IMG/VR virus record: IMGVR_UViG_3300047564_003845
Location: 1 to 60,446 of that record
DNA from: a virus
Reading direction: 5' to 3' (one strand)
Length of the DNA: 60,446 nt
This document shows positions 1,469 to 39,761 of the stretch, piece after piece. The position numbers and the translations under genes are program-made. Below the pieces are notes generated by a model that was given only the letters and a program-made list of their open reading frames with translations, was not told where the DNA came from and did no database searches. Position 1 is the first letter of the stretch, and each line of letters opens with the position of its first letter.

Positions 1469-2462
1469 AACTAAATTCCTTTCGTGCGATTTCGTCCAAC
1501 TGTTGCATTACTTCTTCAGTGAAATATACTTCAGGTTCTTTCAGAATCTGTTTAGCATAAATCTTCTTACCATCAATCTCATAGCGTCCTGCTACATTCT
1601 TCCAAAGTCCTCCAATCTCTCCAAGTTCAAGAAGACCGTAGTAACGATCAAGACCACGCTCATCATAATAAAGACGAACCTCAACATCTTTATTCTCTTT
1701 ACTCAAACGCGATTTAGCAGTCTTAGCCTTGATAATATTTCCGACCACTTCCGTTCCATCCTTTTCTTTTTTCTTTGAGAGATAAATGATTGTAGAGGCT
1801 GCGTATTTGAGTCCAGAACCTCCTCCCATTTCTTTCGTTGGTACATAAGCTCCGATGACATCGTATGTATGATTTGTGACAATGAGTGGAACATTTGCTT
1901 GACCTAGTTTAAGTGTTAGCATTCGGAAAGCACCTTTGATAAGTTGCGATTTAGTCATATCACGAACTTGCTTATCATTCAGTGCATCAGTAATCTCTTT
2001 CTCTGTAGAAAGCATACCCAGAGAGTCTAACACAAACATGCAAGGACTACGTTCCCCTTCGGGTTTCTTCATATAAAGATCAACTGCTTTAAGAGCCTTA
2101 CTGCGGAATTCTTCTACGGTGACAACATTAACCACGACAAGGCGTGATGTGTCAATGCCGCGTGACTCCAGGAGAGACTTTGTAATGGCAGCCTCAGTAT
2201 CAAAATAGAGACAATAACCATCGGGATTATTATCAAGAAAATTCTTAACCACGGCGAGACTGAAGAAAGTCTTTCCAGTAGAAGACTCTCCAGCAATAGC
2301 AGTAATTTTATTCCCAGATACACCACCAAAGATGCTACCCGAAACCAGTGCATTAAAAATATACGAACCCGTGTCAACATAGATCTCCGTCTCATCAATA
2401 TCCGATGCTAACTTTGTATAGTCATCACCAATTTCTTTTACAATATCTTTAAGAAAATCCAT
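1455..2462 (-). CDS. uvsX: UvsX, RecA-like strand-exchange recombinase
   Basis: This 335-residue recombinase coats single-stranded DNA and drives strand exchange in recombination-dependent replication. The RecA core is clear: Walker A GESSTGKT at residues 58-65, Walker B-like CMFVLDSLGML, and VPLIVTNHTYD followed by the glycine-rich loop EMGGGSGLKYAAS. It is somewhat shorter than T4 UvsX (391 aa), as is usual for cyanophage versions. Its ATG overlaps the stop of the polymerase C-terminal fragment (TAATG), pointing to translational coupling. Partners in this window include UvsY, gp41 and gp46/gp47. Confidence 0.96.
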   Translation of the reverse strand: MDFLKDIVKEIGDDYTKLASDIDETEIYVDTGSYIFNALVSGSIFGGVSGNKITAIAGESSTGKTFFSLAVVKNFLDNNPDGYCLYFDTEAAITKSLLESRGIDTSRLVVVNVVTVEEFRSKALKAVDLYMKKPEGERSPCMFVLDSLGMLSTEKEITDALNDKQVRDMTKSQLIKGAFRMLTLKLGQANVPLIVTNHTYDVIGAYVPTKEMGGGSGLKYAASTIIYLSKKKEKDGTEVVGNIIKAKTAKSRLSKENKDVEVRLYYDERGLDRYYGLLELGEIGGLWKNVAGRYEIDGKKIYAKQILKEPEVYFTEEVMQQLDEIARKEFSYGES

Positions 2463-3820
2463 TAGGCAAAAAATGAATCAAGGTTTACTGTCTTTTCCAT
2501 ATTCCACCCAATAATATCAAGAATAACTTTGAGTGGTTCTAGAAATGCTTTCTCAAATTGTAATTCATAATCTATGTATTTGTCAAGATTCAGTTCCTTG
2601 GGAAACTCCTGAATAAATGAGATTACATTCTCATGAATCGTATTTGGTTTCTTGAGGTAAACAAACTTGATCTTTTCTCCGTTCTGAATCAAAGAATATT
2701 TTCCAGTCAGGTTATTTTCTTTGACATAATAATTAAAGAGAAGTGCTCCACGAACATGAATCGGAGTTCCCTTTACATAAATTTGAGAGTGTGATGTATA
2801 TTTCTGAACGTCAGACGCAGAACGTGGGAATGAGATTTCTTCAGGTGGTAATTTCTTAAATTTATTGCGGAAATCATCAATAAACTGAATCATATCATCT
2901 TCACTTCCACTCATCAGAATATTAAATGCTTCTTTCAGCATCTTACGACAAGGAGCAGGAGTAGAAGATTTGATTGCTTCAATACCCTTGATTTTCAGTT
3001 TGGGTGATTCATATCGAACACCTTCACTATCCCATACACTCAGAATGTATCGTTTCTTCGCAGTCCAAATACCACGTTCAGCAATACACTCACGCTTCAT
3101 AATCATCTTCTGATCGTAAGCGTTTACATAATTCGCCAATTCTTGATAAGAACTTTCAATATATTTTTCAAGTTCCACTTGACACACCTTATCAAGGAAC
3201 GAAACAATGTCTTGAGTAGTTTTCTCTCTTCCTTTGAATACAGTTTCAACCAAAGGACCCATATTGAGATAGATAGAATCAGTATCAGAAGCAATAACAT
3301 AATCTTCACCATCTGTTTTAAGAATTTTGTTTATGTAGGAGTTCATCTTATTCATAATCCACTGAATTGAAACCTTACCGGAAAGAGTAATCGCTTCAGC
3401 GTTTGCTAGTTTATAGTAACGGAAATACTGATTGCCAATAGCACCATAAGCAGAGTTAAGCTGAATCTTCCTCGCCATTTGGATGTTATTACATCGCGCA
3501 ATTTCCTTTTCCAACTCTTTTGTTTTAGTCTTCTCATACTGTTGTTCTGCAGCAAGCATCTTCTTCTTGAAGATCACACGTTCATTGTAGATCTTCTCCA
3601 TCAGTTCAGGAAGAAAACCATTTACTCTACGATAAAGTGCTCCGTTTGCAGTAATAGTCAAATTGACTTTTCGCAAAGGTTCTAAATCCAATTCTTGATT
3701 AAGAAGTTTATCAACATTCACTTGATTAGAAAGTTCTCTTACTTTCTTAAGTGCTTCCAATTCCTCTTTAATTTCTTGAGGAGACATTTGACGAACATCT
3801 TTCCACATATTATTATTCAT
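2462..3820 (-). CDS. 43: DNA polymerase gp43, C-terminal fragment of a split gene (palm motifs B and C, thumb)
   Basis: This 452-residue protein is the C-terminal half of a family B replicative DNA polymerase. Motif B (K118, N122, Y125 in KIQLNSAYGAIGN) and the catalytic motif C (SDTDS, D179 and D181) are present, followed by the thumb. Motif A and the exonuclease are on the separate upstream fragment at 4384-5655. The reading frame differs from that fragment, so the two are not joined by simple readthrough. The start codon overlaps the stop of the GIY-YIG gene and no Shine-Dalgarno sequence is visible, so translation probably depends on coupling. A second in-frame ATG at 3808-3806 leads into WKDVRQM, which looks like the ancestral junction. 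Confidence 0.93.
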   Translation of the reverse strand: MNNNMWKDVRQMSPQEIKEELEALKKVRELSNQVNVDKLLNQELDLEPLRKVNLTITANGALYRRVNGFLPELMEKIYNERVIFKKKMLAAEQQYEKTKTKELEKEIARCNNIQMARKIQLNSAYGAIGNQYFRYYKLANAEAITLSGKVSIQWIMNKMNSYINKILKTDGEDYVIASDTDSIYLNMGPLVETVFKGREKTTQDIVSFLDKVCQVELEKYIESSYQELANYVNAYDQKMIMKRECIAERGIWTAKKRYILSVWDSEGVRYESPKLKIKGIEAIKSSTPAPCRKMLKEAFNILMSGSEDDMIQFIDDFRNKFKKLPPEEISFPRSASDVQKYTSHSQIYVKGTPIHVRGALLFNYYVKENNLTGKYSLIQNGEKIKFVYLKKPNTIHENVISFIQEFPKELNLDKYIDYELQFEKAFLEPLKVILDIIGWNMEKTVNLDSFFA

Positions 3821-4356
3821 AGTATTTTAGTAATTTTTTTAATACCAAACTCTTTTAATCTTTGTTTAATCAATACTTCACTACAATTATAATGTTCGGC
3901 AATTTGCTTCCTTGTCTTATTCTCAATAATATACAATTTTCTCAAATCTTCACTTTCAATTTTATAAGTTCTATTTTGTCTCATAGTTTCTCTATACCTT
4001 TGACGGGTATTTTCACTCATAGGATATGATTTACCTTTTACTCTACCACCACTTTTTTTTGAAATATTATAAAGTGTTCCACCTTCACTTATCAATTTAT
4101 ACTTTTCAATAAGTTCTTCTTCTAAGACTAAACATTCTTTTTTTGTTCCCTCAAAAATCTTTTCAACAAATGGTTCTCTTCCCGACAAAAAAATAGATTT
4201 TATTTTACCATAGAAAGATGGATAATTTGCATCATATGGCATATAAGAACTTGGTTTTAAGTGAGCCCACATTCTATACCCCTGCCCCATACCAACATAA
4301 AAAACTTTATCATCATCTTTGTATTGATAAACATACATAGGATACTCTCTTTTCAT
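3817..4356 (-). CDS. GIY-YIG homing endonuclease inserted in the DNA polymerase gene
   Basis: This 179-residue protein begins with a GIY-YIG-type nuclease module: MYVYQYKDDDKVFYVGMG carries the paired strand motif (YVY...YVG), followed by an arginine in YRMWAH and a downstream LEEELIEKY segment. The C-terminal part (SYPMSENTRQRYRETMRQNR) resembles NUMOD3-like DNA-binding repeats, and the end (RKQIAEHYNCSEVLIKQRLKEF) looks like a helix-turn-helix. It sits between the two polymerase fragments. Only about 27 bp separates it from the upstream fragment, too little for a group I intron, so it is a free-standing endonuclease rather than an intron-encoded one. A late-promoter motif lies 19 nt upstream of its ATG. 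Confidence 0.88.
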   Translation of the reverse strand: MKREYPMYVYQYKDDDKVFYVGMGQGYRMWAHLKPSSYMPYDANYPSFYGKIKSIFLSGREPFVEKIFEGTKKECLVLEEELIEKYKLISEGGTLYNISKKSGGRVKGKSYPMSENTRQRYRETMRQNRTYKIESEDLRKLYIIENKTRKQIAEHYNCSEVLIKQRLKEFGIKKITKIL

Positions 4357-4375
4357 TTATAAACTATCTATATCC

Positions 4376-4383
4376 TATTTATA
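4376..4383 (-). promoter_or_regulatory. Late promoter, exact TATAAATA, before the GIY-YIG endonuclease
   Basis: Read on the minus strand this is exactly TATAAATA, the T4 late promoter element recognised by gp55. It lies 19 nt upstream of the endonuclease ATG. The same bases can pair as TATAAA with TTTATA just before the ATG (4358-4363), so a readthrough transcript could fold the start region while a late transcript would lack the 5' arm. The stem is only A/T pairs, so the folding part is speculative. Confidence 0.65.
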
Positions 4384-5655
4384 TTATAGCATACTTTCGA
4401 GTTCTGCAATCCTCTTATTTACATCATCCATACTCACAAGAGTTTCTGGGGATATTGAGTATTGCATAATAAGGTGGGGATAAAGGCTGTTCAAATCGAA
4501 ACTTACAACATAATCATACATACCAGAAATAGGTTCTTTTACATAAGCACCTTCATACTTTTCATCTTTCTTAGTCTTGTTCTTTGGGGGGATTACAATG
4601 TTCTTCTTCTTGAGATATGTGTAGATGATATTATCCCACATACGAACCTGATAAAACACATCAGCATAATTCACCTTTGCGTCATATGCCATCGTCAGAG
4701 CAAGTTCAATCAGTTTCATCTTGTCTTCCAGACGGTCAACAAGTTCTACGTCAATGATGTTATATTCAATGAACTTCTGCCATCCTTTGGTGTAGAAATC
4801 TTTGAATGTATCAAACTCAGAGTGATCCAGTTTTTTCTGTCCCAGTTCCACTTCAGCAATATAATCTAGACGATAAGATTCCTGAACTTTATAAGTAAAT
4901 TTCTTATAAAGATCCAAATAGTCAAGTTGAGTCAAACCACCTACATCAAATGTGGTGTGCTTGCGTCCATTGATGAATACTTCACCCTCAGTCACAAGTC
5001 CCCAGTTAGAGAACCGTTTCATCAGTTTCTCACCAAGAACACGATTCAGTCTCTTACAGATATAAGGAACGTCATACATCTGGATGTTCCATCCTGTAAT
5101 CACATCAGGAACATCCACCATCCAATAATTGATGAAGTGATTGAGAAGTTCATACTCAGAGGGGCAATGATGATAAGTCACATCCTTGCGGGTGTTATTG
5201 AATGGTTTAACTCCCCAAGTAATAATCTTCTTTGTTGTATAATCCTGAATAGAGATAGAAAGGATTTCTTCAGATGCAGATTCTACATCAGGGAATCCTG
5301 CTTCTGATGCAACCTCAATATCTAGAGTTACAAGTTTGATTTTACTGATATCAAACTTAATTTCATCGTCCGGATATTTTTCCGAAATGTATTGGTAGAT
5401 ATAACGGTCATTTCCGTAGATCTCAAATCCATCTACACTTTCATACTTATTATAAAATTCACGACAGTCACGAACTGTTCCCGGATTTACTGGTTCAACT
5501 GCTTCGCCACTTAATGTTCGATATTTAGAATCTTTTTTAGTTTTCACATAAAGAGTTGGGAAGAACTCATCTCTTGTTTCAAATCTTTTTCCATTTTCTA
5601 CCCCACGAACCAAAAACTGATTTCCAATCAATTGAACATTAGTATAAAATCTCAT
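4384..5655 (-). CDS. 43: DNA polymerase gp43, N-terminal fragment of a split gene (exonuclease domain and motif A)
   Basis: This 423-residue protein is the N-terminal half of the family B replicative polymerase. The 3'-5' proofreading exonuclease is intact: Exo I D112 and E114 (same numbering as T4), Exo II N190 and D195, Exo III Y298 and D302. Polymerase motif A follows as SFDLNSLYPHLIMQYS with the catalytic D387. The protein stops 36 residues after motif A, before the fingers, so it cannot polymerise without the C-terminal fragment at 2462-3820. Together the two parts total 875 aa, near T4 gp43 (898 aa). The start overlaps the preceding Sm-like gene by 4 bp (ATGA). Confidence 0.94.
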   Translation of the reverse strand: MRFYTNVQLIGNQFLVRGVENGKRFETRDEFFPTLYVKTKKDSKYRTLSGEAVEPVNPGTVRDCREFYNKYESVDGFEIYGNDRYIYQYISEKYPDDEIKFDISKIKLVTLDIEVASEAGFPDVESASEEILSISIQDYTTKKIITWGVKPFNNTRKDVTYHHCPSEYELLNHFINYWMVDVPDVITGWNIQMYDVPYICKRLNRVLGEKLMKRFSNWGLVTEGEVFINGRKHTTFDVGGLTQLDYLDLYKKFTYKVQESYRLDYIAEVELGQKKLDHSEFDTFKDFYTKGWQKFIEYNIIDVELVDRLEDKMKLIELALTMAYDAKVNYADVFYQVRMWDNIIYTYLKKKNIVIPPKNKTKKDEKYEGAYVKEPISGMYDYVVSFDLNSLYPHLIMQYSISPETLVSMDDVNKRIAELESML

Positions 5656-6338: not shown

Positions 6339-6518
6339 TTATTCTCCACCATCTCCCCCACTTCCATCTCCACCATCTCCATTACCACCAGCACTTGAGC
6401 GACTTCTTACAGGAACTGCTTTTCTTTTTGGAATTTTTTTTGATTTTCCTCCAGAATAAACAGTGTGAGGAATTGCATTTTTATATGCAATTTCTTTGAA
6501 CTCTTCGAAAGATTTCAT
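6339..6518 (-). CDS. Small protein with capsid-targeting-like N-terminus and Gly/Asp-rich tail
   Basis: This 59-residue reading frame begins MKSFEEFKEIAYKNA. The first residues resemble the T4 capsid-targeting sequence MKTYQEFIAE and two other small proteins here (13584-13874 and 27235-27555). The middle is basic (KSKKIPKRKAVPVRSRS) and the end is a run of Gly, Asp and Ser. No clear L/I-x-E cleavage site is seen, so targeting is less certain than for the other two. TCTAAATA, a one-mismatch late element, lies only 9 nt before the ATG. It lies between hsp20 and a strong terminator. The composition suggests a disordered protein; function is inferred only from the N-terminus. Confidence 0.65.
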   Translation of the reverse strand: MKSFEEFKEIAYKNAIPHTVYSGGKSKKIPKRKAVPVRSRSSAGGNGDGGDGSGGDGGE

Positions 6519-8752: not shown

Positions 8753-9693
8753 TTGAATTCACACTCACACATAATTTCAGTTAGTGCCGCTAGGAGGTTA
8801 ATTTCCTGATCAGCCACGAACGCACATTGGTATTGATACTTAGCAATAACAAGAACGGCAGCAGGGATAGATTGGGGTGAAAGGCAATCATAAGAGGCGT
8901 CATAAATCCTGCGAAGTAGATGAGAAGCATCGTTATCCAAGTTAGAGACCACCCACTTACGGACTTCTGGGAAGTTCTTCTCCTTGAGGTTCTTGACGAG
9001 TTCATTTACAGAGATGTCTGAGAAAGATGCAAGAATGCCCGAGTCGATTTTTCCTCCCGTAGCGTACCTCTGACACTCGTTAAGGACCCTACGAAAGTCT
9101 GGGAAGTGCTTTGATACAAGTTCAGCAAGGACTTTTTGATCGTACTCAATCTTTTCCTGATCCAGGATCGTTTGGAGACGTTGGAAGAAACTTCCTGCAA
9201 GTTGAACCCGTTGCTTCCCTTTGATGGTGAAGTCAATGACGGCACATCGGGAATGAAGAGGTTCAATGATCTTGTTCTTGTAATTGCAAGTGAAGATGAA
9301 TCGGCAGTTGCTATAAAATGCCTCAATATTTGCCCGTAGTAGGAGTTGTACATCTGAGGTTGTGTTGTCACTCTCATCCACAATGATGACTTTGTGCCTA
9401 CCATTTCCTTGAAGAGATACGGTCGAAGCAAAGTTCTTTGCTTGGTTCCTGACAGTATCCAAGAAACGCCCTTCGTCGGATCCGTTGATGACATAGTAAT
9501 CTGCTCCTAATTGTTCGCATAGTGCCTTGGCAATAGTTGTTTTCCCAATGCCCGGAGGACCAGACAATAGTAGATTGGGAATTTCACCTTTATTAATAAA
9601 GTCCAAAAAAGTTTTTTTAGTATCCTCTGGAAGAATACAATCCTCTACTTTTTTTGGTCTCCACTTTTCCACCCACAAAAAATTGTCACTCAT
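8749..9693 (-). CDS. 44: Clamp loader large subunit gp44 (AAA+ ATPase)
   Basis: This 314-residue AAA+ ATPase is the motor of the clamp loader. It begins MSDNFLWVEKWRPKKVED, the classic start for this family, with Walker A GPPGIGKT (45-52), Walker B IIVDESD, and the SRC motif in PLHSRCAVIDF. I chose the ATG at 9693, whose A is shared with the stop of the HNH gene (TGATG) and which has a GGAG Shine-Dalgarno inside that gene. An upstream-extended reading is a frame artefact. Length equals T4 gp44 (319 aa). The methylase follows with a 4 bp overlap. Confidence 0.96.
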   Translation of the reverse strand: MSDNFLWVEKWRPKKVEDCILPEDTKKTFLDFINKGEIPNLLLSGPPGIGKTTIAKALCEQLGADYYVINGSDEGRFLDTVRNQAKNFASTVSLQGNGRHKVIIVDESDNTTSDVQLLLRANIEAFYSNCRFIFTCNYKNKIIEPLHSRCAVIDFTIKGKQRVQLAGSFFQRLQTILDQEKIEYDQKVLAELVSKHFPDFRRVLNECQRYATGGKIDSGILASFSDISVNELVKNLKEKNFPEVRKWVVSNLDNDASHLLRRIYDASYDCLSPQSIPAAVLVIAKYQYQCAFVADQEINLLAALTEIMCECEFK

Positions 9694-10142
9694 CAATAAA
9701 CTCCATTTAATACATTCCAAATACTTTTTTGACTTTTTCCCATAATATCAGCAACTTGTCTTTGGGACAATCCCTGACTGGAAAGATTCATAATTTCTCC
9801 TTTCACGTCAGGTTCCATTTGAACTACTGCTTTTCTTGGATTTGATTTTCCAATTTGAGACCTTCTTGTGTTTTCTGAACGAGGCAACCATCTCAAGTTT
9901 TCAACTTTGTTGTTGGTTTTATTTTCATCAATATGGTCTATACACCAATCTATACCTTTTGGTCTTGGTTCCCCCCAACATTCTACCACAAGTTGATGAA
10001 GTCGTTTTTCACGAACTACAACATAACCATCTCTTTTATCAACTCTTCCAATAGGTTTTACATTTAGAATTTTACCACAAGCACTTACATAAATGTCTGG
10101 ATAAGTTTTTGATTGTTTGTAGGTAATTCCGTTGAGTTCCAT
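9693..10142 (-). CDS. HNH homing endonuclease with C-terminal helix-turn-helix
   Basis: This 149-residue protein has an HNH nuclease core with LHQLVVECW (H49) and CIDHIDENKTNNKVENLRW (residues 67-85), the pattern of phage homing endonucleases. An N-terminal strand module (GITYKQSKTYPDIYVSACG) resembles NUMOD4. The C-terminus (QGLSQRQVADIMGKSQKS) is a predicted helix-turn-helix for site recognition. It lies just upstream of gp44 with its stop overlapping the gp44 start. TATAAATA lies 21 nt upstream, the same arrangement as for the GIY-YIG gene. It is a free-standing mobile gene; whether it cleaves gp44 of related phages is not shown. Confidence 0.9.
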   Translation of the reverse strand: MELNGITYKQSKTYPDIYVSACGKILNVKPIGRVDKRDGYVVVREKRLHQLVVECWGEPRPKGIDWCIDHIDENKTNNKVENLRWLPRSENTRRSQIGKSNPRKAVVQMEPDVKGEIMNLSSQGLSQRQVADIMGKSQKSIWNVLNGVY

Positions 10143-10163: not shown

Positions 10164-10171
10164 TATTTATA
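10164..10171 (-). promoter_or_regulatory. Late promoter, exact TATAAATA, before the HNH endonuclease
   Basis: Exact TATAAATA on the minus strand, 21 nt upstream of the endonuclease ATG, within an otherwise early/middle replication region. The position parallels the element at 4376-4383. Confidence 0.65.
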
Positions 10172-12210: not shown

Positions 12211-13329
12211 TCAGTTTGCTTGCTGTTCGTCAACGTTCAGTTCAGTTTGAACTGGCATCTCGAAATCAGCATCCACCTTATCATAGAGTTCAAGGAATGC
12301 TTGCTTAGTCTCATCGTCAAAACGATTGACGCACACTTGGATTGCTTTTCCTTTATCTTGGAAGATGCTGTAAGCACGGATGATATGAACCAGACGACGG
12401 GTGCTAATGATTTCCTCAATACCACCATCATAGAAGGTCTTGCGGATAATATCACCCCAATCGACCAGACGCTTGCAGAAGTCACGGTCTTCCACACCCA
12501 GATCCAGAGCGATACCCTCAAGGATCTTCTGCTCCACGGAGGGAGCGGGATAGGACTGCTCGAAGGTCACGGGGAAACGCTCTAGGAATGCCTCATTGAG
12601 GACATTAGTGCCGATGAAACGACCATCATCAGAACCCTTACCCTTAGTGTTTGCGGTGGCGATGACGTTGAAACCAGGAGCGGGTTTCACGAACTTACCA
12701 ATCTTTTTCAGGAAGACACCTTTACCTTCCAGAACGGATTGCAGGCACAGGATTTTGTTAGAAGCAAGGTCAATCTCATCTAGCAGAAGAATTGCACCAC
12801 GCTCAAGTGCCTCAATCACAGGACCATTATGCCAGGCAGTTTCACCATTCACAAGACGGAAACCACCAATCAGATCGTCCTCATCAGTCTCAATAGTGAT
12901 GTTAACGCGGATCAGTTCACGCTTGAGTTGAGCGCAAGCTTGTTCCACAGAGAACGTTTTACCATTACCCGAAAGACCCGTAATGAACGTAGGATAGAAA
13001 AGACGGGACTGAATAATTTTTTTAACGTCGTTAAAATTACCAAACTTGACGAAGGTATCATCTTTATCAGGAATAAGGTTTTGATGAACTTCAGGAAGAA
13101 CAGCAACGCTATTAAAAGTACGCTCAATCTCTTCCACTTTCTTTTGAGTTACTTCCAGATTCCACTTACCGCGACCAATCTTAAAGTTTTCCAGTCGCTT
13201 GGTAACGGTGGGATAGGAAAGGTTTTTAGAAGCACAATAACCGCGAACATCAGCAGCGGTAAACTCTGCACCAAACGTGTTCTTGAGGTCACTGATGATC
13301 TGGTCGTCGGTCATTTGAATGCGGGACAT
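12211..13329 (-). CDS. cobS: CobS-like AAA+ ATPase (MoxR-type)
   Basis: This 372-residue AAA+ ATPase has Walker A GLSGNGKT (118-125), Walker B AILLLDEIDLAS, and a sensor segment NVIATANTKGKG, as in CobS and MoxR proteins. CobS is the ATPase of cobalt chelatase, and cyanophage versions are commonly called CobS. An N-terminal helix-turn-helix-like stretch (FTAADVRGYCASKNLSYPT) is extra. The partner expected for MoxR/CobS, a VWA-domain protein, is encoded two genes upstream (13898-16117). I therefore think a chaperone or remodelling pair is as likely as cobalamin synthesis. It has its own TATAAT after a terminator and is followed by another terminator. Confidence 0.88.
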   Translation of the reverse strand: MSRIQMTDDQIISDLKNTFGAEFTAADVRGYCASKNLSYPTVTKRLENFKIGRGKWNLEVTQKKVEEIERTFNSVAVLPEVHQNLIPDKDDTFVKFGNFNDVKKIIQSRLFYPTFITGLSGNGKTFSVEQACAQLKRELIRVNITIETDEDDLIGGFRLVNGETAWHNGPVIEALERGAILLLDEIDLASNKILCLQSVLEGKGVFLKKIGKFVKPAPGFNVIATANTKGKGSDDGRFIGTNVLNEAFLERFPVTFEQSYPAPSVEQKILEGIALDLGVEDRDFCKRLVDWGDIIRKTFYDGGIEEIISTRRLVHIIRAYSIFQDKGKAIQVCVNRFDDETKQAFLELYDKVDADFEMPVQTELNVDEQQAN

Positions 13330-13394: not shown

Positions 13395-13580
13395 TCAGTT
13401 CACCAACTGGTTCCGAAGTGTCTCCAGATACTCCTTGCTGCCGATGTGACCTTTATAACCAGGATAGTATTTTTCAACAAGTGCAGGAATACCAATAGCA
13501 GTAGTTACGCTGCTACAAGCAACCCACACTTCTTTTGTGTCGTATTTAATAACGTGTTCGTAGGGAAATTTTGTTTTCAT
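13395..13580 (-). CDS. Small hypothetical protein
   Basis: This 61-residue protein begins MKTKFPYEHVIKYDTKEVWV and contains SSVTTAIGIPALVEKYYPGY in the middle. No known domain is recognised. It lies 3 bases after the stop of the 96-residue gene and just before an intrinsic terminator, which supports a real gene at the end of that transcript. The alternating polar and hydrophobic pattern near the start suggests a small strand-helix fold. Function unknown to me. Confidence 0.65.
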   Translation of the reverse strand: MKTKFPYEHVIKYDTKEVWVACSSVTTAIGIPALVEKYYPGYKGHIGSKEYLETLRNQLVN

Positions 13581-13583
13581 CGT

Positions 13584-13874
13584 TTATCGTCTCATTTGTT
13601 TTTCATAATTTCTGTGTGCTCTCTGGCGATGTGCTTCTGCCTCTGCAGGACTTTTACCAGATTTAGTTGCTGCAGCATGAGCTTCGTCCCCTGCCGCTTT
13701 CTTTTTAGCAGCGTGGTCGGCAAAATGCTGTGCGATTTTATTTTGTCTTTGAGTGTTAGTAATAACTTCGGCAGAACTTACTCTTTGCTTCACATTTCTT
13801 ACTTTAGTGCGACCACTAGAAACATTTTCATCAAGTTGATATAACTCGCACATAAACTCTTGAAAGGTTTTCAT
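13584..13874 (-). CDS. Small basic protein with capsid-targeting-like N-terminus (internal protein candidate)
   Basis: This 96-residue protein begins MKTFQEFMCELYQLDENVSS. The first ten residues match the T4 capsid-targeting sequence MKTYQEFIAE at seven positions, with M-C-E at the place of the L/I-x-E protease site. The rest is basic and Ala/Lys/Arg-rich (FADHAAKKKAAGDEAH; HRQRAHRNYEKQMRR), as in T4 internal proteins that are packed in the head and injected with DNA. A CATAAATA late element lies 20 nt upstream, giving late expression in an otherwise non-structural cluster. I infer a head-packaged internal protein; a plain DNA-binding protein would also fit the composition. Confidence 0.75.
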   Translation of the reverse strand: MKTFQEFMCELYQLDENVSSGRTKVRNVKQRVSSAEVITNTQRQNKIAQHFADHAAKKKAAGDEAHAAATKSGKSPAEAEAHRQRAHRNYEKQMRR

Positions 13875-13894: not shown

Positions 13895-13902
13895 TATTTA
13901 TG
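13895..13902 (-). promoter_or_regulatory. Late promoter candidate CATAAATA before the internal-protein candidate
   Basis: CATAAATA on the minus strand (one mismatch to TATAAATA), 20 nt upstream of the ATG at 13874. It overlaps the stop region of the metallopeptidase gene. The same variant precedes gp8. Confidence 0.5.
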
Positions 13903-16117
13903 CGACGAGTGAAATGAACTCACCAAGAACTTTTTTATTTAGTTTTTTAGTTTTCAGAGACTTCACAAAAGCAGATTTGATTTGTGCTTTAGAAGCACAT
14001 TCAGCAACCTCAAAGTCAGCATCCTGAGAAAGTGCTGCTGCAGACATTCCAAAGTATGCATCATAACCAGAGTTGGTGATAATAAAACTCCTATTCTTCT
14101 TCCAGTCACTCTGGATTACATCATACTTCTTATCCTTCCAAGAATGATAAAGTTGAATGAAGCGATTTGCATCACGACTTTCAAGGACACGAATACCAAT
14201 CAGATTAACAGAAGGAAACTTGTCCTTCAGGTTCTTCAAAAGAGTATCAGTATATCCGTGATAATCGTATCCAAACTTGTAGTTCATACCAGTCTTCCTA
14301 TCACGCAGGAAAGAGTTATCAGGATTGATATGACGGGTTCCAAGGTAGGGCTCACTTTCCCAACCACGCTTCACTTCAACGTGACGGGGAAGCGGAGGTG
14401 CTTCACCATCAGTCAAAACAATACACTGAACCTTCTGAAGTTTGTTTTGAGATTGAAACTGAGGAATAATCTGATTAAGGCAAATCAGAGCCTCATTCAG
14501 AGGAGTTCCAGAAAGACACAAACGATTGGGATACGTATAAGGAGAGTGATAGGTGTTGTTAAAATACGCAGCAAGACGCCAAATGTTCTTCATTTGATTT
14601 TCCAGTTGCTTACCAGAAACTTTACTAGTAAGAAGGTTCATCAGAGAGAAACTTTCATCAATCGCAATCACACTTTCTTTCTTCTCATAATGAGAAGTTC
14701 TATCGGAAGAAATATACTTACCAGTTTCATAGTCATATTCATAACGACGCCATTCATTTGTGAAAGCATAAACCTCAAAAGGAATGGAAACCTTCTTACA
14801 GAACCAAATCAGGTTAAAGAGTTGCTTACAGGTATCCAGAAGGACATTCTGCATAGAACCACTCCAATCCAGAATGAAGATAAGTCCGTGATTCTTACCA
14901 TCAGGAAGAACAGTCACTTTCTTGAAAAGGTCTTCGCTAAACTTATAAGAATGAAGACGAGCAGTATCTAGAACACCTGTGCGAGCAGTAGAAGCACGGG
15001 AATAACTATCTGCTGCTTTACGGCACTCAAACTCCTTCACAAGATAGTTAACTTCTTTCTGAGCGGAGTTCTTGAACTTCTGAAACTCAAGGTCTACATT
15101 CTTATAAAGACTCCAAAGAGGTGCGTTATTTGCTTCATTCAAAGCATCCATATTCCTCTGCTGATGATTAAAGCAGTCATCAAGTTCTTTATGAACCTCA
15201 GAGTTCTTCGCAATAATCGTCTCAAGATTGACTTGAGGCAGTTCTACATACACATTATCTTCACCGTGCTGATTTACCAGACTGCGAAGTTTATCATCCA
15301 GAGATTCTGCAGTACGAACTTCAGGTTCTTCCTGAGTGTTAGAAGGTGAAGTAGTATTTTGTTGACTTTGAGCGGGTCCTTCATTATCGCTATTCTCCTC
15401 AGATTGAGTAGATTCTGATTCGTTAGATTGACCCTCTTGCTCGTCCTGAGGTTGCTCCATTTCAGCATCTTCACCATTAGGAGAAGTAGAAGCACTTTGA
15501 GTTTCGTGATTATCAAAGTCAGCAACTTTCTGCTGTTGTTGCTGTTCTTTCTTACAGTACTTATAAAGTTCCTCAGAAGCAATCAGAACATCTGCAAACG
15601 TTTCCGTTGCACCAATCAGGTCAACAATCTCCTTTTCTTCTGGAGTGAAATCCAGAGAAAGGAAGTTACCGACTTTATAGTAAAGATTTACTTTATCAGC
15701 AAGATTAAAGGTAGAGACATCTTCACCCTCAAGTTGAAAGAAATCCTCCTCATTCAGTTCCTTATATCCACCAAAGAAAGTCTTAGCAAGACCAGCATAC
15801 TTACGCTTCATCAGTTTCTCAACGCGAACGTCCTCTACGACATTCACAAACTGAGCGGGAACCTTTGCAGTCTCGGTCCAGTCCTCATCAGGCGTGAAGA
15901 GTGCGTGACCCACTTCGTGACCCACCAGAAGGTCGTAGACGGTCCCGCTAGCCTTCTCCCAGAGAGGCAGCGTCAGAACCCGCGTATGGACGTTAAAGCA
16001 GGCAGTCTCAACCTTTTTATGCTCCACCACAAGGTCTTCAGTCGCAAGAAGTTTCGCAAGTTGGGATTTGATTTCGTGGCGAACAGGCATCGGTTTTGTT
16101 TCGTATGGACCTATCAT
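13898..16117 (-). CDS. CobT-like protein: zinc metallopeptidase-like N-terminus plus VWA domain
   Basis: This 739-residue protein has two recognisable parts. Residues 60-115 carry a metallopeptidase-type motif, GHEVGHALF (H67, E68, H71) followed by VNVVEDVRVEKL, the arrangement of a gluzincin with a downstream Glu ligand. Residues 410-740 are a von Willebrand A domain with an intact MIDAS start (DWSGS, D417, S419, S421). Between them is an acidic, Gln/Ser-rich linker (about 190-270). VWA proteins of this kind pair with CobS/MoxR ATPases, and a CobS-like gene lies two genes downstream. Cobalt insertion is the annotation by analogy; protein remodelling or proteolysis are alternatives. The ATG at 16117 has no strong Shine-Dalgarno; MPVRHEI at 16090 is an alternative start. 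Confidence 0.85.
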   Translation of the reverse strand: MIGPYETKPMPVRHEIKSQLAKLLATEDLVVEHKKVETACFNVHTRVLTLPLWEKASGTVYDLLVGHEVGHALFTPDEDWTETAKVPAQFVNVVEDVRVEKLMKRKYAGLAKTFFGGYKELNEEDFFQLEGEDVSTFNLADKVNLYYKVGNFLSLDFTPEEKEIVDLIGATETFADVLIASEELYKYCKKEQQQQQKVADFDNHETQSASTSPNGEDAEMEQPQDEQEGQSNESESTQSEENSDNEGPAQSQQNTTSPSNTQEEPEVRTAESLDDKLRSLVNQHGEDNVYVELPQVNLETIIAKNSEVHKELDDCFNHQQRNMDALNEANNAPLWSLYKNVDLEFQKFKNSAQKEVNYLVKEFECRKAADSYSRASTARTGVLDTARLHSYKFSEDLFKKVTVLPDGKNHGLIFILDWSGSMQNVLLDTCKQLFNLIWFCKKVSIPFEVYAFTNEWRRYEYDYETGKYISSDRTSHYEKKESVIAIDESFSLMNLLTSKVSGKQLENQMKNIWRLAAYFNNTYHSPYTYPNRLCLSGTPLNEALICLNQIIPQFQSQNKLQKVQCIVLTDGEAPPLPRHVEVKRGWESEPYLGTRHINPDNSFLRDRKTGMNYKFGYDYHGYTDTLLKNLKDKFPSVNLIGIRVLESRDANRFIQLYHSWKDKKYDVIQSDWKKNRSFIITNSGYDAYFGMSAAALSQDADFEVAECASKAQIKSAFVKSLKTKKLNKKVLGEFISLVA

Positions 16118-25535: not shown

Positions 25536-26186
25536 TTACAATGAGTTTAAGAACTCGATGAAGAGAGATAATTTATACTCTTCTAAAATACCCTCATCAA
25601 CTAGAGTATTTATTCTACGTTTAGTGTTTTCCGCTACCCTTTCTCTTAGCATTCCACCATCCCATACCCATTCTTTGCCTTCCATAATTCCTTGAACGAA
25701 TGCATCGGGAGCAGAAGGATCGGCAACAATATCAGCAGCAGTTGCTAACATAAAGTCTTCGCCAACTTCAGTATATCCCTCTCTTGTTGGTCTCACCGAA
25801 CCAATACCGCGAGAAGAAACTCCCAGAGTCACTCCTTCTTTAAGAAGTGATTCTGCAATCTTACCCATTGGGGTAGAAAGAATTTGTGCCTTACCAATGA
25901 AGTTATTTCCCTCACGACGAAGTTCAACAATCTTATGAGAAACACGATCCAAATTTACAGTTGGCCCATCTGGATGCCCTAATTCACCAAGAGCACGACC
26001 TTTATTTACATACTGTTCTGTATAACGCCGTACTTCCCTTTCCATAACAGGCATACGGTACATTCTACCATTCCTGTTTACAACTTCAGTTTGTAGAAAA
26101 GGACCTTGAATATAAAGAGTTTTTTGACCGTTCTTTTCTTCGGTAATAACTTCTACTGATTCTATTTCTTCGGTGATAAGTTTCAT
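25536..26186 (-). CDS. 21: Prohead core protease gp21
   Basis: This 216-residue serine protease matures the head by cleaving at L/I-x-E. The catalytic His lies in GELGHPD (H71) and the Ser in GVSSRG (S124 or S125), the arrangement of the gp21 family; length equals T4 gp21 (212 aa). Substrates in this window would be gp22, gp23 and proteins with capsid-targeting-like N-termini. It is 4 bp from the preceding small gene. The N-terminal part (TEEIESVEVITEEKNGQKTLY) fits the family. Confidence 0.95.
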   Translation of the reverse strand: MKLITEEIESVEVITEEKNGQKTLYIQGPFLQTEVVNRNGRMYRMPVMEREVRRYTEQYVNKGRALGELGHPDGPTVNLDRVSHKIVELRREGNNFIGKAQILSTPMGKIAESLLKEGVTLGVSSRGIGSVRPTREGYTEVGEDFMLATAADIVADPSAPDAFVQGIMEGKEWVWDGGMLRERVAENTKRRINTLVDEGILEEYKLSLFIEFLNSL

Positions 26187-27234: not shown

Positions 27235-27555
27235 TCAATCAATCCATTCCAATTTTGATGGATGATATCTCTGCGCGTTCTTTATGTTTAAATTCTTTTC
27301 TATCACCGGATAAATTTGATGAACGATTGCACCAGGATAATTGGATTGCAACTGTTCACCAAGTTCTCTAGTAGATGGAATTCCGTTTTTAGTAATTAAC
27401 TCTAAACGATATAAGTTCCCTTCCCAGATTATGTCCGCAACATATTCTTCACCAACTTGTTGTTGTGGTTCTGGTTGAGAATTAATATAAAGATTTCCTG
27501 TGAAATCACCAGCAATATTAACCGATTCTGAGATAAATTGCTTGAAAGATTTCAT
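27235..27555 (-). CDS. Small prohead protein in gp68 position, capsid-targeting-like N-terminus
   Basis: This 106-residue protein starts MKSFKQFISESVNIAGDFTG. The first ten residues resemble the T4 capsid-targeting sequence MKTYQEFIAE, and FISE|S is a good L/I-x-E cleavage site after E10. I chose the ATG at 27555 over the longer, basic upstream extension because the latter would run into the preceding gene. It lies where T4 has gp68 (order 20-67-68-21), but sequence identity to gp68 is not evident to me. A beta-rich middle (YVADIIWEGNLYRLEL) follows. I infer an internal head or core protein cleaved by gp21. Confidence 0.78.
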   Translation of the reverse strand: MKSFKQFISESVNIAGDFTGNLYINSQPEPQQQVGEEYVADIIWEGNLYRLELITKNGIPSTRELGEQLQSNYPGAIVHQIYPVIEKNLNIKNAQRYHPSKLEWID

Positions 27556-34269: not shown

Positions 34270-35988
34270 TTAATTACAATTCCAACGACGAAGTGCTTTA
34301 TTAATTCTGCTATCTGGATCCCTTGCCGTTTCAGCAGATGTCAGTCTATTTTTCATACCCTTCATACGACGACAAAAAGACTTACGACGATCTGCTCTTT
34401 TTCCTGTTGGATTTTTTTCAGTTACTGCTGTTTGAAGTTTTGAACCCGGATTTTCTCTGCGATAAGCATTAACCGCTTTCTGACTTAATCCATCAGTTTT
34501 GTCTTGACGATTAACTTTTTGCCAATCCTCATCAACTTCCGTCTCTTCACCATACATTCCCATTGGTTTTACATAGTTTCTATTAGGTCCTGGTTTTGCC
34601 GCGCTGCCACCTTGAGGACCAAATGCTTGAATTAGAGGTTGACCTGGTTGTATTTCGGAAACGGAATGGTGAACTACATTGCATCCAGGGTAAACCTTTT
34701 CTAGTTCGACATTAATTTCCTTTCTGGTTGGAAGTTTTACCTGTGGGAAAAACATCTTAAGTGAATAATATTTTCCTCTCCAAGAAAGAGTAACACCAAT
34801 TACATTTCCAGTTTGAGCCTGCAATCTGGTTGCCTCTTCTACCTGAGATTTAAATCCTTTAATCGGTTCTGGTTTAATTAAATCCACAACTTCTGCAAAT
34901 GTATTTCCATCAGCATCTTCAATAGTTACGTTTTCGGGAACACAATTTGGAACTTTTCTATTTCCTTTTTTCTTCATTCCAATTTGCTTATATCCAGACC
35001 AACATGCCTCTTCCATTTCTCCACTAGCGACATAATCTGCTGCTGTGTCAAGATAATCTGCTGCCTTAGTGATTTTTGATTGAACCCAAGCTTCTATACT
35101 CCCCTCACCTTTTTCTACTTTTGCCTTAAGTCTTTCTGCAGCATTTATGAGAGTTTCGAGTTCTGAACGAACCATGGAATATTCGTGATCTTTGACTGAG
35201 ACTTTATCCCATGCCTTTCCTCCATAGGAGCATTCTGATCTAGTCTCCCTTTTATCACATAAGGGACAATATCTCTCTTCGTCTTGCGTTGTAGACTCTG
35301 ATTTTGTCCCCCAGTTTGCAGCACCAGATTTGCGGCACTTAACTAGTGCTCCAGATGCATATGCACTAGGCCAAACATCATAACGTGACTTTACCTTATG
35401 GTAACAGGCATCTTTTTTACCACTACCTTTACCTGGTTTGTCTTTTACTTCTTGTAAATCCATTTCTTCAGTTCTCACGTTAGTTGGCTTTGCTCCACCT
35501 GTTTTTTGTGGTTGATTTGGGTCTTGTATATTTTTTCTACGTCTTGCTGCTTCTTCTTCATTTTTGGAAAGTGATCTTTTCATTTTTGAGCTACCACATT
35601 TTGGTGTAGAAGTTTGTCCTGGTTGACGAGCACATGGCTTTCCTGCCCATTTGCCACCAAGTTGAACCCAACCTTTTTTACCGTCAGATGATTTAGATTT
35701 ATTGAACCAATCATGGAGACCTTCATCTCCGGATTTAGTTTCTTCTTTCACATCTTTAAACTTATTATGATGCTTTTTAGCATCATTTTCCATTTTTTTT
35801 AGTCTGGTATAGTAATCTGGTATCTCATCTAAATGCTGAAGAGCAATATCTCTAGCAAGATTGTGATCTTTAGTATGTTCATGTTCAATAGGTTCTCCCA
35901 TATCAAGTTGCTTTTGTATAAAAGAAACTTCAAGTCGATGCTTCTTTGCAATTTGCTCAACAGACTTATGGGACTTAATTTTAGACAT
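34270..35988 (-). CDS. Modular Cys/Lys-rich protein between gp16 and gp17, function unknown
   Basis: This 572-residue protein is a chain of short phage modules. Residues 1-70: IAKKHRLEVSFIQKQLDMG with EHEHTKD (DUF5661-like). Residues 90-145: KKGWVQLGGKWAGKPCARQP with later CGSSKMKRSLSK. Residues 193-230: ACYHKVKSRYDVWPSAYASG with VKCRKSGAANWG. Residues 240-255: CPLCDKRETRSEC, a zinc-knuckle-like pair. Then a helical part (270-325), CWSGYKQIGMKKKGNRKVPN at 329-348, a beta part (395-445), and a basic end, KSFCRRMKGMKNRLTSAETA with RWNCN at the C-terminus. Such modules recur in phage proteins I remember only as hypothetical. DNA-binding or head-packaged roles fit the basic charge but are inference. 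Confidence 0.85.
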   Translation of the reverse strand: MSKIKSHKSVEQIAKKHRLEVSFIQKQLDMGEPIEHEHTKDHNLARDIALQHLDEIPDYYTRLKKMENDAKKHHNKFKDVKEETKSGDEGLHDWFNKSKSSDGKKGWVQLGGKWAGKPCARQPGQTSTPKCGSSKMKRSLSKNEEEAARRRKNIQDPNQPQKTGGAKPTNVRTEEMDLQEVKDKPGKGSGKKDACYHKVKSRYDVWPSAYASGALVKCRKSGAANWGTKSESTTQDEERYCPLCDKRETRSECSYGGKAWDKVSVKDHEYSMVRSELETLINAAERLKAKVEKGEGSIEAWVQSKITKAADYLDTAADYVASGEMEEACWSGYKQIGMKKKGNRKVPNCVPENVTIEDADGNTFAEVVDLIKPEPIKGFKSQVEEATRLQAQTGNVIGVTLSWRGKYYSLKMFFPQVKLPTRKEINVELEKVYPGCNVVHHSVSEIQPGQPLIQAFGPQGGSAAKPGPNRNYVKPMGMYGEETEVDEDWQKVNRQDKTDGLSQKAVNAYRRENPGSKLQTAVTEKNPTGKRADRRKSFCRRMKGMKNRLTSAETARDPDSRINKALRRWNCN

Positions 35989-37480: not shown

Positions 37481-38902
37481 CTATGGCATTCCAAATGGAT
37501 TAACTTCGCTAAAATCTATGATTTGGTCTGCCTCTTCTTCAATTTCATCATTTGCACCAAATCCATCCCTTGCGGCATATGTATCAATATTTCTCAAATA
37601 ATGAGAAGCACTAGATGCAGATCCTACTATATTTTCTCCTGGAATAAAACTTCCGGTGAGTTGAGAAACTTGAAGAACATTTGTAATAGAATTCCAAGAT
37701 TTAACTCTTGCAGTTACGCCACTTTGGGAACCAGTTACTAATTCGTTGAAAATAAAGTTTCCTGTAGAATTTAGTGCAGGATTTCCTATTGTTAGGGTAG
37801 GAGGTTCTGTGTATCCTAATCCAGCATTTGTGATATAAATTGCAGTAATAGATCCGGCAGCAGACACCACTGCAGTTGCTGCAGCAGAAACTGAAGAAAT
37901 TCCGGTAAAGGTAATTGATGGTGGAGATACATAACCAGATCCGGAATTTGTAATTGTTATAATGCCTACTATTCCATCGCCAAGTGTTGCAGTAGCTGTT
38001 GCACCACGACCTCCACCACCTATAAATCTGACGCCAGGTGTTACTGTATATCCATATCCAGCATTAGTGATTTTAACTTGTTGTACTGATTTTGCTTGTG
38101 GATTAACATTACTATTACATACTACAATACCACCGATCATCTCAGCAATTGCACTCGCTGTCTGACCTCCGGCGGGAGCAGAAGAAAATCCTACTGTAGG
38201 AGTGCTTGTGTATCCTCCACCCCTATTTGTAATCGTTACAAACCTTACTCCACCATTTACAATGGAAGAAATTGCAGTTGCGGTTACACCAAAACCAACC
38301 ATTGTGAGATTAATAATATTTCCATATGGATTAAATGATGTGGTAATTCCTGCCCCATCTTCATCACTGCTGCCCAAATCATCAATATCATCGATACCTG
38401 TATCAATCAGTTCGTCTTCATAGCGGAACAATTCGCATCTTAATTCGTAAGTATATAATCCTTGAAGTTGATAAAACGGTTTTTCATGCTCCACATATTT
38501 TATTTCAAATAATCGTTTACCCAAAGGAAAATAAATTAAATCACCTTCTTTTGGTCTTGAAGATAATTTAATATTTGGTTGATTTTTAATTAGGGGAGAT
38601 ATATAAGTTTTAAATCTTTCTCTAGAAATAGTTAAGGTTATTTCATTAAGAGCCTGTATCCCAAATTTCGATAAAATAGTAGGATTATCTGAGTAACCTT
38701 CATATGTGTTTACATATGCTTCTATTGGATATGCATTATTAAATTCAGATTCTATAACTTCTCTAATGACAGTTTTTTCTGTGATATATTGTCTAGGTAA
38801 ATAATGAACTTCAACACCATACATCCTCAACTGTTCGTTGATAAGATCTTGTATTAAACCCTGCTCTGTTTTTGATCCTTGAAGAAAAAAAGGATTAAGC
38901 AT
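37481..38902 (-). CDS. 14: Neck protein gp14 with inserted glycine-rich repeats
   Basis: This 473-residue neck protein is nearly twice the T4 length (256 aa). The start MLNPFFLQGSKTEQGLIQDL and the end FSEVNPFGMP match gp14, and residues 1-160 fit the core. Residues about 195-410 are an insertion of beta repeats of the form ITN-G-GYT--P-V-F, with three or four copies (ITNRGGGYTSTPTVGF, ITNAGYGYTVTPGVRF, ITNSGSGYVSPPSITF, ITNAGLGYTEPPTLTI). The same repeat occurs in gp8 and in both giant proteins. It follows gp13 by 4 bp. Confidence 0.93.
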   Translation of the reverse strand: MLNPFFLQGSKTEQGLIQDLINEQLRMYGVEVHYLPRQYITEKTVIREVIESEFNNAYPIEAYVNTYEGYSDNPTILSKFGIQALNEITLTISRERFKTYISPLIKNQPNIKLSSRPKEGDLIYFPLGKRLFEIKYVEHEKPFYQLQGLYTYELRCELFRYEDELIDTGIDDIDDLGSSDEDGAGITTSFNPYGNIINLTMVGFGVTATAISSIVNGGVRFVTITNRGGGYTSTPTVGFSSAPAGGQTASAIAEMIGGIVVCNSNVNPQAKSVQQVKITNAGYGYTVTPGVRFIGGGGRGATATATLGDGIVGIITITNSGSGYVSPPSITFTGISSVSAAATAVVSAAGSITAIYITNAGLGYTEPPTLTIGNPALNSTGNFIFNELVTGSQSGVTARVKSWNSITNVLQVSQLTGSFIPGENIVGSASSASHYLRNIDTYAARDGFGANDEIEEEADQIIDFSEVNPFGMP

Positions 38903-38906
38903 ATGA

Positions 38907-39761
38907 TTAACCTATCATATCTAGAGGTGGAAGTTCGTAGGTACTTGACATTTTTTCCATTAAAACGTCAATTTCTCTCTGAGCATCGTCATACATTTGC
39001 CTACCATTAAGTTCAACCCCACCAGGAAGTTTTACTCCAGTAAATTTCATCATATTCTGCCCCCACTGTTTTTTAATCAATGAGGTCAGATATGGTTTTA
39101 AGAAAGAATCATTCCAAACTCTAGAATAATCATTTGGATCTAAAGTTGAGTAGCAATCAATTACAAAAAATTGATCTTTAGTAACAGAACCCCAATCTAT
39201 ATCCAGATATAACCTATCTTGTCTTTTATTAAAACGTATTTGTTTATTGGTATTCAATAAAAAGTCCAAATCTTCTAGATATGTCTTAACCATAGCATAA
39301 CTAAGAAGTTCTGTAGTTCCCCAGTAGTAAATATCATTTAAAAATAATTGATATTTAACACTAAACATGTTGTGAGTAATAGTATTAGCACCATCAAAAG
39401 TAAAAATTTTATTTACCCCAATAATGTTTGGTGGAACTTGTAAGTAATTACTATTTTCGTAATATGTAAAAGTTGTAGCAGCGCCAACTATATCTGATGT
39501 CAATGATGTACTGGCAATTCCTACTGAACTTGCTGCATTTGAACCATAACCTGCTCTACCCCTGTCAATATCATTTTGAGTTACTCTATACTTATAAAAA
39601 GTTGGATATACTCCATCAAAATGTCTCTCTTGAAAGAACTGAACCGCATCATCTACCAGGTCTTCAATCTGTTCGTCTGCAACATTTATTTCTAAAACCG
39701 GAGCACCTAGTTTTCTCTTGCAGTAGTCAATTAATTCTTGACGGGTAGATGGTTGTGCCAT
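38907..39761 (-). CDS. 13: Neck protein gp13
   Basis: This 284-residue neck protein begins MAQPSTRQELIDYCKRKLGA and has QIEDLVDDAVQFFQERHFDG, the standard gp13 start, then NDIYYWGTTELLSYAMVKTY and IDCYSTLDPNDYSRVWNDSF. It ends with MSSTYELPPLDMIG. T4 gp13 is 309 aa. The start overlaps the stop of the small upstream gene (TAATG). Confidence 0.95.
   Translation of the reverse strand: MAQPSTRQELIDYCKRKLGAPVLEINVADEQIEDLVDDAVQFFQERHFDGVYPTFYKYRVTQNDIDRGRAGYGSNAASSVGIASTSLTSDIVGAATTFTYYENSNYLQVPPNIIGVNKIFTFDGANTITHNMFSVKYQLFLNDIYYWGTTELLSYAMVKTYLEDLDFLLNTNKQIRFNKRQDRLYLDIDWGSVTKDQFFVIDCYSTLDPNDYSRVWNDSFLKPYLTSLIKKQWGQNMMKFTGVKLPGGVELNGRQMYDDAQREIDVLMEKMSSTYELPPLDMIG

Follow-up and report, generated by a model that had tools for sequence, protein, structure and literature searches.

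Capsid targeting sequences have been worked out in Escherichia phage T4 and its close relatives. The T4 internal proteins IPIII and IPII both begin MKTYQEFIAEA in the T4 genome, and in this sequence residues 4 and 7 serve targeting whereas residues 8 and 10 serve processing (PMC9026906). The T4 protease gp21 cleaves after L/I-x-E, and the propeptides of the internal proteins are 10-19 residues long (PMC9026906). Among T-even phages, the payload behind this constant tag is exchanged (PMC3012670). A T4-like tag is also seen at the start (MKTFKEFIKED) of T4 gp61.1 (NC_000866 18966-19130), a 54-residue protein annotated as hypothetical. In a full-text literature search that combined capsid targeting with cyanophage or Synechococcus, no account of a capsid targeting sequence in cyanophages came up, and where the sections consulted deal with the virion enzymes of these phages (SAM hydrolase, kinase, NMNAT), they name no loading mechanism.

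The window analysed here is a viral DNA stretch of 60,446 nucleotides (IMG/VR record IMGVR_UViG_3300047564_003845) with a gene content of the cyanomyovirus type; its 12-16 kb region has matches in 463 phage records, nearly all cyanophages. This region encodes ORF96, a small protein that is probably packaged into the head by a T4-like tag, in the manner of a T4 internal head protein. Its parts are as follows.

13584..13874, minus strand: ORF96, a tagged basic protein of 96 amino acids with an ATG start
13827..13874, minus strand: N-terminal tag, residues 1-16 (MKTFQEFMCELYQLDE), with a helix predicted at 4-15 (AlphaFold2)
13587..13826, minus strand: payload (core), residues 17-96, starting NVSSG, with homologues L005-L009 and L124-L131
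Within the tag: prohead-protease cleavage possible behind E10 (MCE) and behind E16 (LDE, which fits L/I-x-E)
13895..13902, minus strand: late-promoter-like element CATAAATA

From end to end the protein reads MKTFQEFMCELYQLDENVSSGRTKVRN...HRNYEKQMRR, opening with MKTFQEFMCELYQLDENVSSG.... The first-pass annotation had aligned its start, MKTFQEFMCE, with the T4 sequence MKTYQEFIAE and had described the remainder as basic. Both statements hold: residues 1-10 are identical at 7/10 positions, and the computed pI is 10.0 (net charge +8) for the whole protein and 11.0 (net +11) for the part after E16. Homologues of the core are 68-78% identical, and this conservation makes ORF96 very probably a gene; its payload was not found in named phage records.

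The key positions of the T4 sequence are retained as F4 (F for Y), F7 and E10, so that the targeting residues of a T4-type tag (an aromatic residue at 4 and F at 7) are present in the form MKTFQEF. Residue 8 is M instead of I or L, and the MCE site, which lies in the T4 register, therefore violates the L/I-x-E rule; within about the first 10-19 residues, it is LDE at 14-16 that fits. The mature start at L11 that had been proposed earlier is thus uncertain, favoured by the retained E10 but disfavoured by M8 and by a canonical L-x-E that ends at E16. The better prediction for the mature start is N17, since L-x-E ends exactly where homology between the payloads begins.

Starts of this kind also occur elsewhere in cyanophages. 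In 11 cyanophage and pelagiphage records, with the window included and T4 left out, MK[TS][FY]xxF stands at 19/2,554 ORF starts compared with 2/9,492 internal methionines (p=2e-11), and M[KR]x[FY]xxF[ILMV]xE at 14 ORF starts compared with no internal methionine (p=4e-10); the genomes are related and the tagged proteins partly homologous to one another, so these p values overstate independence. The window itself has three MK[TS][FY]xxF starts: ORF96, the gene at 27235-27555 (MKSFKQFISES) and that at 6339-6518 (MKSFEEFKEI), the last without an LxE site.

The same tag is re-used on many payloads. When IMG/VR was scanned for MKT[FY]QEF starts, at least 122 proteins of 45 amino acids or more were returned, which fall into at least 34 payload clusters. 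Among the matches listed, complete proteins have a median net charge of +21, and 79% have a net charge of at least +5 compared with 15% of 2,430 background ORFs, a comparison whose p value is inflated by homologues. An [LI]xE with its E at residues 8-22 is found in 74% of the unique tagged N-termini listed and in 19% of background ORFs, with peaks at E10 and E16 among the matches listed. Pfam supports S-AdoMet lyase, DUF5661 and DUF6321 payloads among these matches; a group of ADP-ribosyltransferase-like payloads has only weak PARP and ART matches. In that group, an HGT...GF...VYxST domain follows MKTFQEFI[AT]EA (L197:962-1504, L187, L214, L218, L239, L240, L246). Its PARP match (E=4e-4) is below the cut-off and its best PDB profile matches are to PARP14 (E=0.16); the domain resembles ADP-ribosyltransferases and may be an analogue of T4 Alt.

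Three tagged genes with differing payloads occur in a row in L131:3124-5424 and in AG-345-F15 (37844-39579, L003:2001-3736), and the L131 gene at 4264-5424 begins MKTYQEFIIEA, nearly the T4 IPIII sequence. A similar FLxEA stretch is present in gp23 of several of these phages. One MKTYQEF protein, the methylase-helicase L178 (net charge -17), has 27 open codons upstream and was set aside as probably a chance match. Another N-terminus that recurs, M[DN]xQELRxLQEAYxxVY, is seen in L254-L332, L006, L008 and L131, often with LxE at residues 21-24 and sometimes fused to the ORF96 core. It is not claimed as a second targeting signal because the sampled proteins fall almost all in one linked cluster and have a median net charge of 0.

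With only 96 amino acids and no family match, ORF96 might be suspected to be a small ORF, unrelated or not expressed at all, that resembles the T4 start by chance. This is extremely improbable in view of the 68-78% identical core homologues, a partly conserved late element, a conserved genomic slot and the strong statistics, and a chance origin of the tag was rejected on the homologues, the clusters and the contrast between starts and internal methionines.

Virion proteomics of other cyanophages gives a view of where tagged proteins end up. In the case of S-CREM2, 52 proteins are listed as detected by mass spectrometry (MS) of virions (PMC10665884, Table 3), and the 219 CDS were translated from OR473000. 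All 6/6 CDS that match the relaxed pattern M.{1,2}[FYL]xxF.{1,2}E were detected (Fisher p=1.4e-4, for a pattern chosen post hoc), as were 3/3 that match a stricter T4-style pattern (p=0.013); 167/219 CDS were without detection. The relaxed-tag virion proteins include a SAM lyase, a kinase and a cytidylyltransferase. Tag-like starts are found on unexpected virion proteins, namely ORF6 (MKDFDSFLEE), ORF13 (MKDLHSFLTE), ORF14 ([M]KRFDAFLTEE, with a GTG start), ORF15 (MNFSEFNES), ORF136 (MQTFSMFFSE) and ORF154 (MKNFSSFLTE). A portal protein (MAKLFGFSIED) caught by the relaxed pattern was treated as a pattern artefact. The virion-detected S-CREM2 ORF12 (OR473000 7704-10313), a nuclease annotated as Cas9 and without a Pfam match, carries a tag-like LRFASFMAEA at residues 17-26, with CTG as the codon of L17; its start may be misannotated or its tag internal.

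In four separate studies, a cytidylyltransferase/NMNAT is detected in the virions of S-SM1 (T4-GC190; PMC3037559), S-SCSM1 (PMC9602691), S-CREM2 (PMC10665884) and S-SZBM1 (PMC9146016). These proteins begin MKKFSAFLNEA, MKSFLQFLKEA, MKNFSSFLTEA and MRFRQFIIEA, respectively, the S-SZBM1 tag (gene at 80389-81477) being one residue shorter. A protein kinase is likewise reported from S-CRM01 virions, and the annotated kinase of that genome begins MISFDQFLSEK. In S-PM2 no ORF has a relaxed tag, so the tag system is not universal.

These data bear on the idea that the N-terminus serves for docking elsewhere than in the head, for instance onto another complex, and that the virion detections reflect co-purification. 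Co-purification of highly expressed proteins is raised for regulatory proteins in the S-CREM2 report (PMC10665884). The tagged phrog_1742 protein (MKTFKQFMSES in S-SCSM1, MKSFKSFLSES in S-SZBM1) lacks a virion-protein label in S-SCSM1, and no entry of its length was found in the S-SZBM1 virion table; it apparently escaped detection by MS. Detection of every relaxed-tag protein of S-CREM2, when most of its CDS escape detection, the recurrence of the tagged cytidylyltransferase in four studies and a tag plus [LI]xE that fits the T4 rule nevertheless make docking improbable.

The AlphaFold2 model of ORF96 has a mean pLDDT of 77, with a disordered stretch at 16-33 followed by a helical hairpin (34-71 / 76-95), mostly above 85. 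Comparison of the model with PDB structures gave no useful match, a PDB sequence search was empty, and profile searches matched the payload to no known family; identity as an S-AdoMet lyase or member of another known family was rejected on this ground. A pattern-limited search for core relatives in bacterial and archaeal genomes gave none among 593 pattern matches. The N-termini that precede the core in other phages are MKTFSQLTEDI (L005), MDAQELRNLQEAY (L006, L008), MNSQELRALQEAY (L131, of weaker homology), MLNE (L007, L124), MESNLNE (L127, L128) and MEDNLRE (L129, L130), and in L009 the core lies between an N-terminal DUF5661 domain and a terminal DUF6321. The residues directly before the core N are LDE, LNE, LGE, IVE, IKE, LRE or IFE, and VDE in L005; a protease-type site thus marks the joint, since the core starts after [LI]xE in all listed proteins but L005.

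Several homologues (L007, L009, L124, L125, L127-L130) have their genes in the structural block, downstream of gp16 in the gene order and ahead of gp17 where the contig goes on. This occurrence points to a general function in the head or with DNA. ORF96 might be a scaffold-core or DNA-packing protein that acts in head assembly or DNA condensation and has no effector role. Its predicted basic helical hairpin is consistent with such a role, as are a core common to proteins encoded between gp16 and the terminase and the presence of S-CREM2 ORF136 and ORF137, from the same slot, in virions. An optional slot with a highly exchangeable payload is unlike an essential part of a scaffold, and we regard this reading as a serious one that falls somewhat short of even chances.

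The packaging reading is set in the following genomic context.

13898..16117, minus strand: VWA-type peptidase phrog_459, the upstream border of the cargo slot
13395..13580, minus strand: ORF61, 61 amino acids, downstream of the tagged gene, whose payload differs between phages
12211..13329, minus strand: cobS/MoxR-like ATPase phrog_249, the downstream border of the slot
25536..26186, minus strand: gp21-type prohead protease phrog_207 (E=7e-81), the predicted processing enzyme
27235..27555, minus strand: another tagged protein (phrog_1742, start MKSFKQFISES...), encoded between portal gp20 and protease gp21, the place of T4 gp67/gp68
34270..35988, minus strand: DUF5661/DUF6321 protein of 572 amino acids, between gp16 and gp17

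By eye, a stretch similar to the tag of phrog_1742 seems also to lie inside the 572-residue protein. The neighbours of ORF96 (the VWA peptidase phrog_459, cobS/MoxR phrog_249, DUF3310, gp45 and gp46) form a non-structural cluster, as first described. Elsewhere in the window, the DNA polymerase is split into two halves, N-terminal at 4384-5655 and C-terminal at 2462-3820, which are separated by a GIY-YIG-like endonuclease ORF (3817-4356). An HNH endonuclease ORF (9693-10142) lies beside the clamp-loader gene and is preceded by a TATAAATA element at 10164.

In the slot, where the tagged gene and ORF61 lie between the VWA peptidase and cobS, the payload changes while tag and position stay constant, and an S-AdoMet lyase is a frequent replacement. 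The gene order of L011 (peptidase, MKTFQEFMVECYSVDE..., ORF61-like, cobS) is that of the window, and a regular-expression screen of neighbours found 26/127 scanned tagged genes, among the matches listed, adjoining the peptidase and/or ORF61. The slot position holds only a 49-aa gene in S-SM2 and no annotated gene in S-SZBM1, so the slot is optional. Most slot payloads are S-AdoMet-lyase relatives: 6/10 slot-type proteins pass the PF23780 cut-off (L010, L157, L184, L228, L134, L160), with E values down to 7e-21, L011 is below the cut-off, and L161, L203 and L147 are without a match. L010 carries nearly the tag of ORF96 with ORF61 downstream as in the window, and is 48% identical over 190 aa to the S-CREM2 virion protein ORF6, itself a PF23780 match (2e-19). 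ORF96 has no match to the PF23780 Pfam profile; none was found in the window either, in a scan whose controls were also without a match, so that this absence is not proof.

The late element had been placed 20 nt upstream of the gene, and there are indeed 20 nt between CATAAATA on the minus strand and the ATG. The arrangement ATAAATA, some bases, then AAAGT precedes ORF96, its homologues L005, L006 and L008, and the slot gene of L011. More widely, NATAAATA lies within 90 nt upstream of 30/125 tagged genes among the matches listed, 28 of them at 18-32 nt, compared with 6-15% of ORFs in comparison genomes and 21% in the window itself. Several slot genes have no late element and start directly at the end of the peptidase gene.

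Under the packaging reading, ORF96 would be (i) made late, (ii) directed into the prohead core by residues 1-16, (iii) cut after [LI]-x-E by the gp21-type protease (25536-26186), best after LDE16 and possibly also after E10, and (iv) left in the head with the DNA as a basic helical payload of 80 residues (N17-R96). The mature payload would then enter the host on infection, a step modelled on the T4 precedent only. DNA association or the modulation of host or defence are the likeliest uses of such a payload.

The first-pass annotation had joined two claims, an internal protein of the head and a candidate anti-defence effector. Head targeting is well supported, by a tag that occurs on at least 34 payload clusters, is joined to a protease-type site and marks unexpected S-CREM2 virion proteins and the cytidylyltransferase of four cyanophages. 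The anti-defence half is circumstantial: related phages have tagged S-AdoMet lyases at this position, but the payload of ORF96 itself belongs to no known family. The S-AdoMet lyase family has known anti-restriction members. By analogy with its slot-mates, an anti-defence function of ORF96 is plausible. The specific proposal that the packaged payload, once injected, inhibits a host defence in the way that T4 IPI* blocks GmrSD gains from the PF23780 lyases that mostly hold this slot in related phages, from S-CREM2 ORF6 in virions and from payload exchange under a constant tag, as in T-even internal proteins (PMC3012670). The payload resembles no known inhibitor and its domain also lies inside structural-block proteins, and the proposal is on balance rather unlikely.

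Beyond this locus, we lean, with some reserve, towards a head-targeting code common to Kyanoviridae and the other T4-like phages, of the approximate form M[KR]x[FY]xxF..E and then an [LI]xE cut, together with payload-swapping slots; such a code would allow carried proteins to be predicted from sequence alone. The payloads swapped under it would be S-AdoMet lyases, kinases, cytidylyltransferases, ADP-ribosyltransferase-like proteins and the new ORF96 domain. As the same type of label stands on proteins detected in purified cyanophage particles, the tag may flag proteins delivered to the host. If it is a loading signal, the proteins that very abundant aquatic phages inject could be listed from genome sequence, and their cargo tested one by one, counter-defence included.

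Three described systems come closest to ORF96. It shares with T4 IPI, IPII and IPIII the N-terminal MKT[FY]QEF..E, a small basic payload that varies while the tag is kept, and a gp21-type protease in the same genome; it differs in an unrelated payload, in a best L/I-x-E at residue 16, not 10, and in a gene that lies in the cyanophage replication/cobS cluster. The virion protein ORF6 of S-CREM2 (annotated SAM hydrolase, PF23780 S-AdoMet lyase) has the same tag type, and two of its homologues, L010 and L011, have almost the tag of ORF96, with L011 lying in exactly the slot of ORF96, whereas ORF96 lacks a lyase domain and has another payload, a basic helical domain. Finally, several DUF5661/DUF6321 proteins of the gp16-gp17 slot (phrog_727, phrog_10346) contain the ORF96 core at about 53-70% identity, joined at an [LI]xE|N boundary, and the DUF6321 protein of this slot in S-CREM2, ORF137, is MS-detected in virions; in a Pfam search ORF96 has neither DUF5661 nor DUF6321, and consists of just the core preceded by a T4-like tag.
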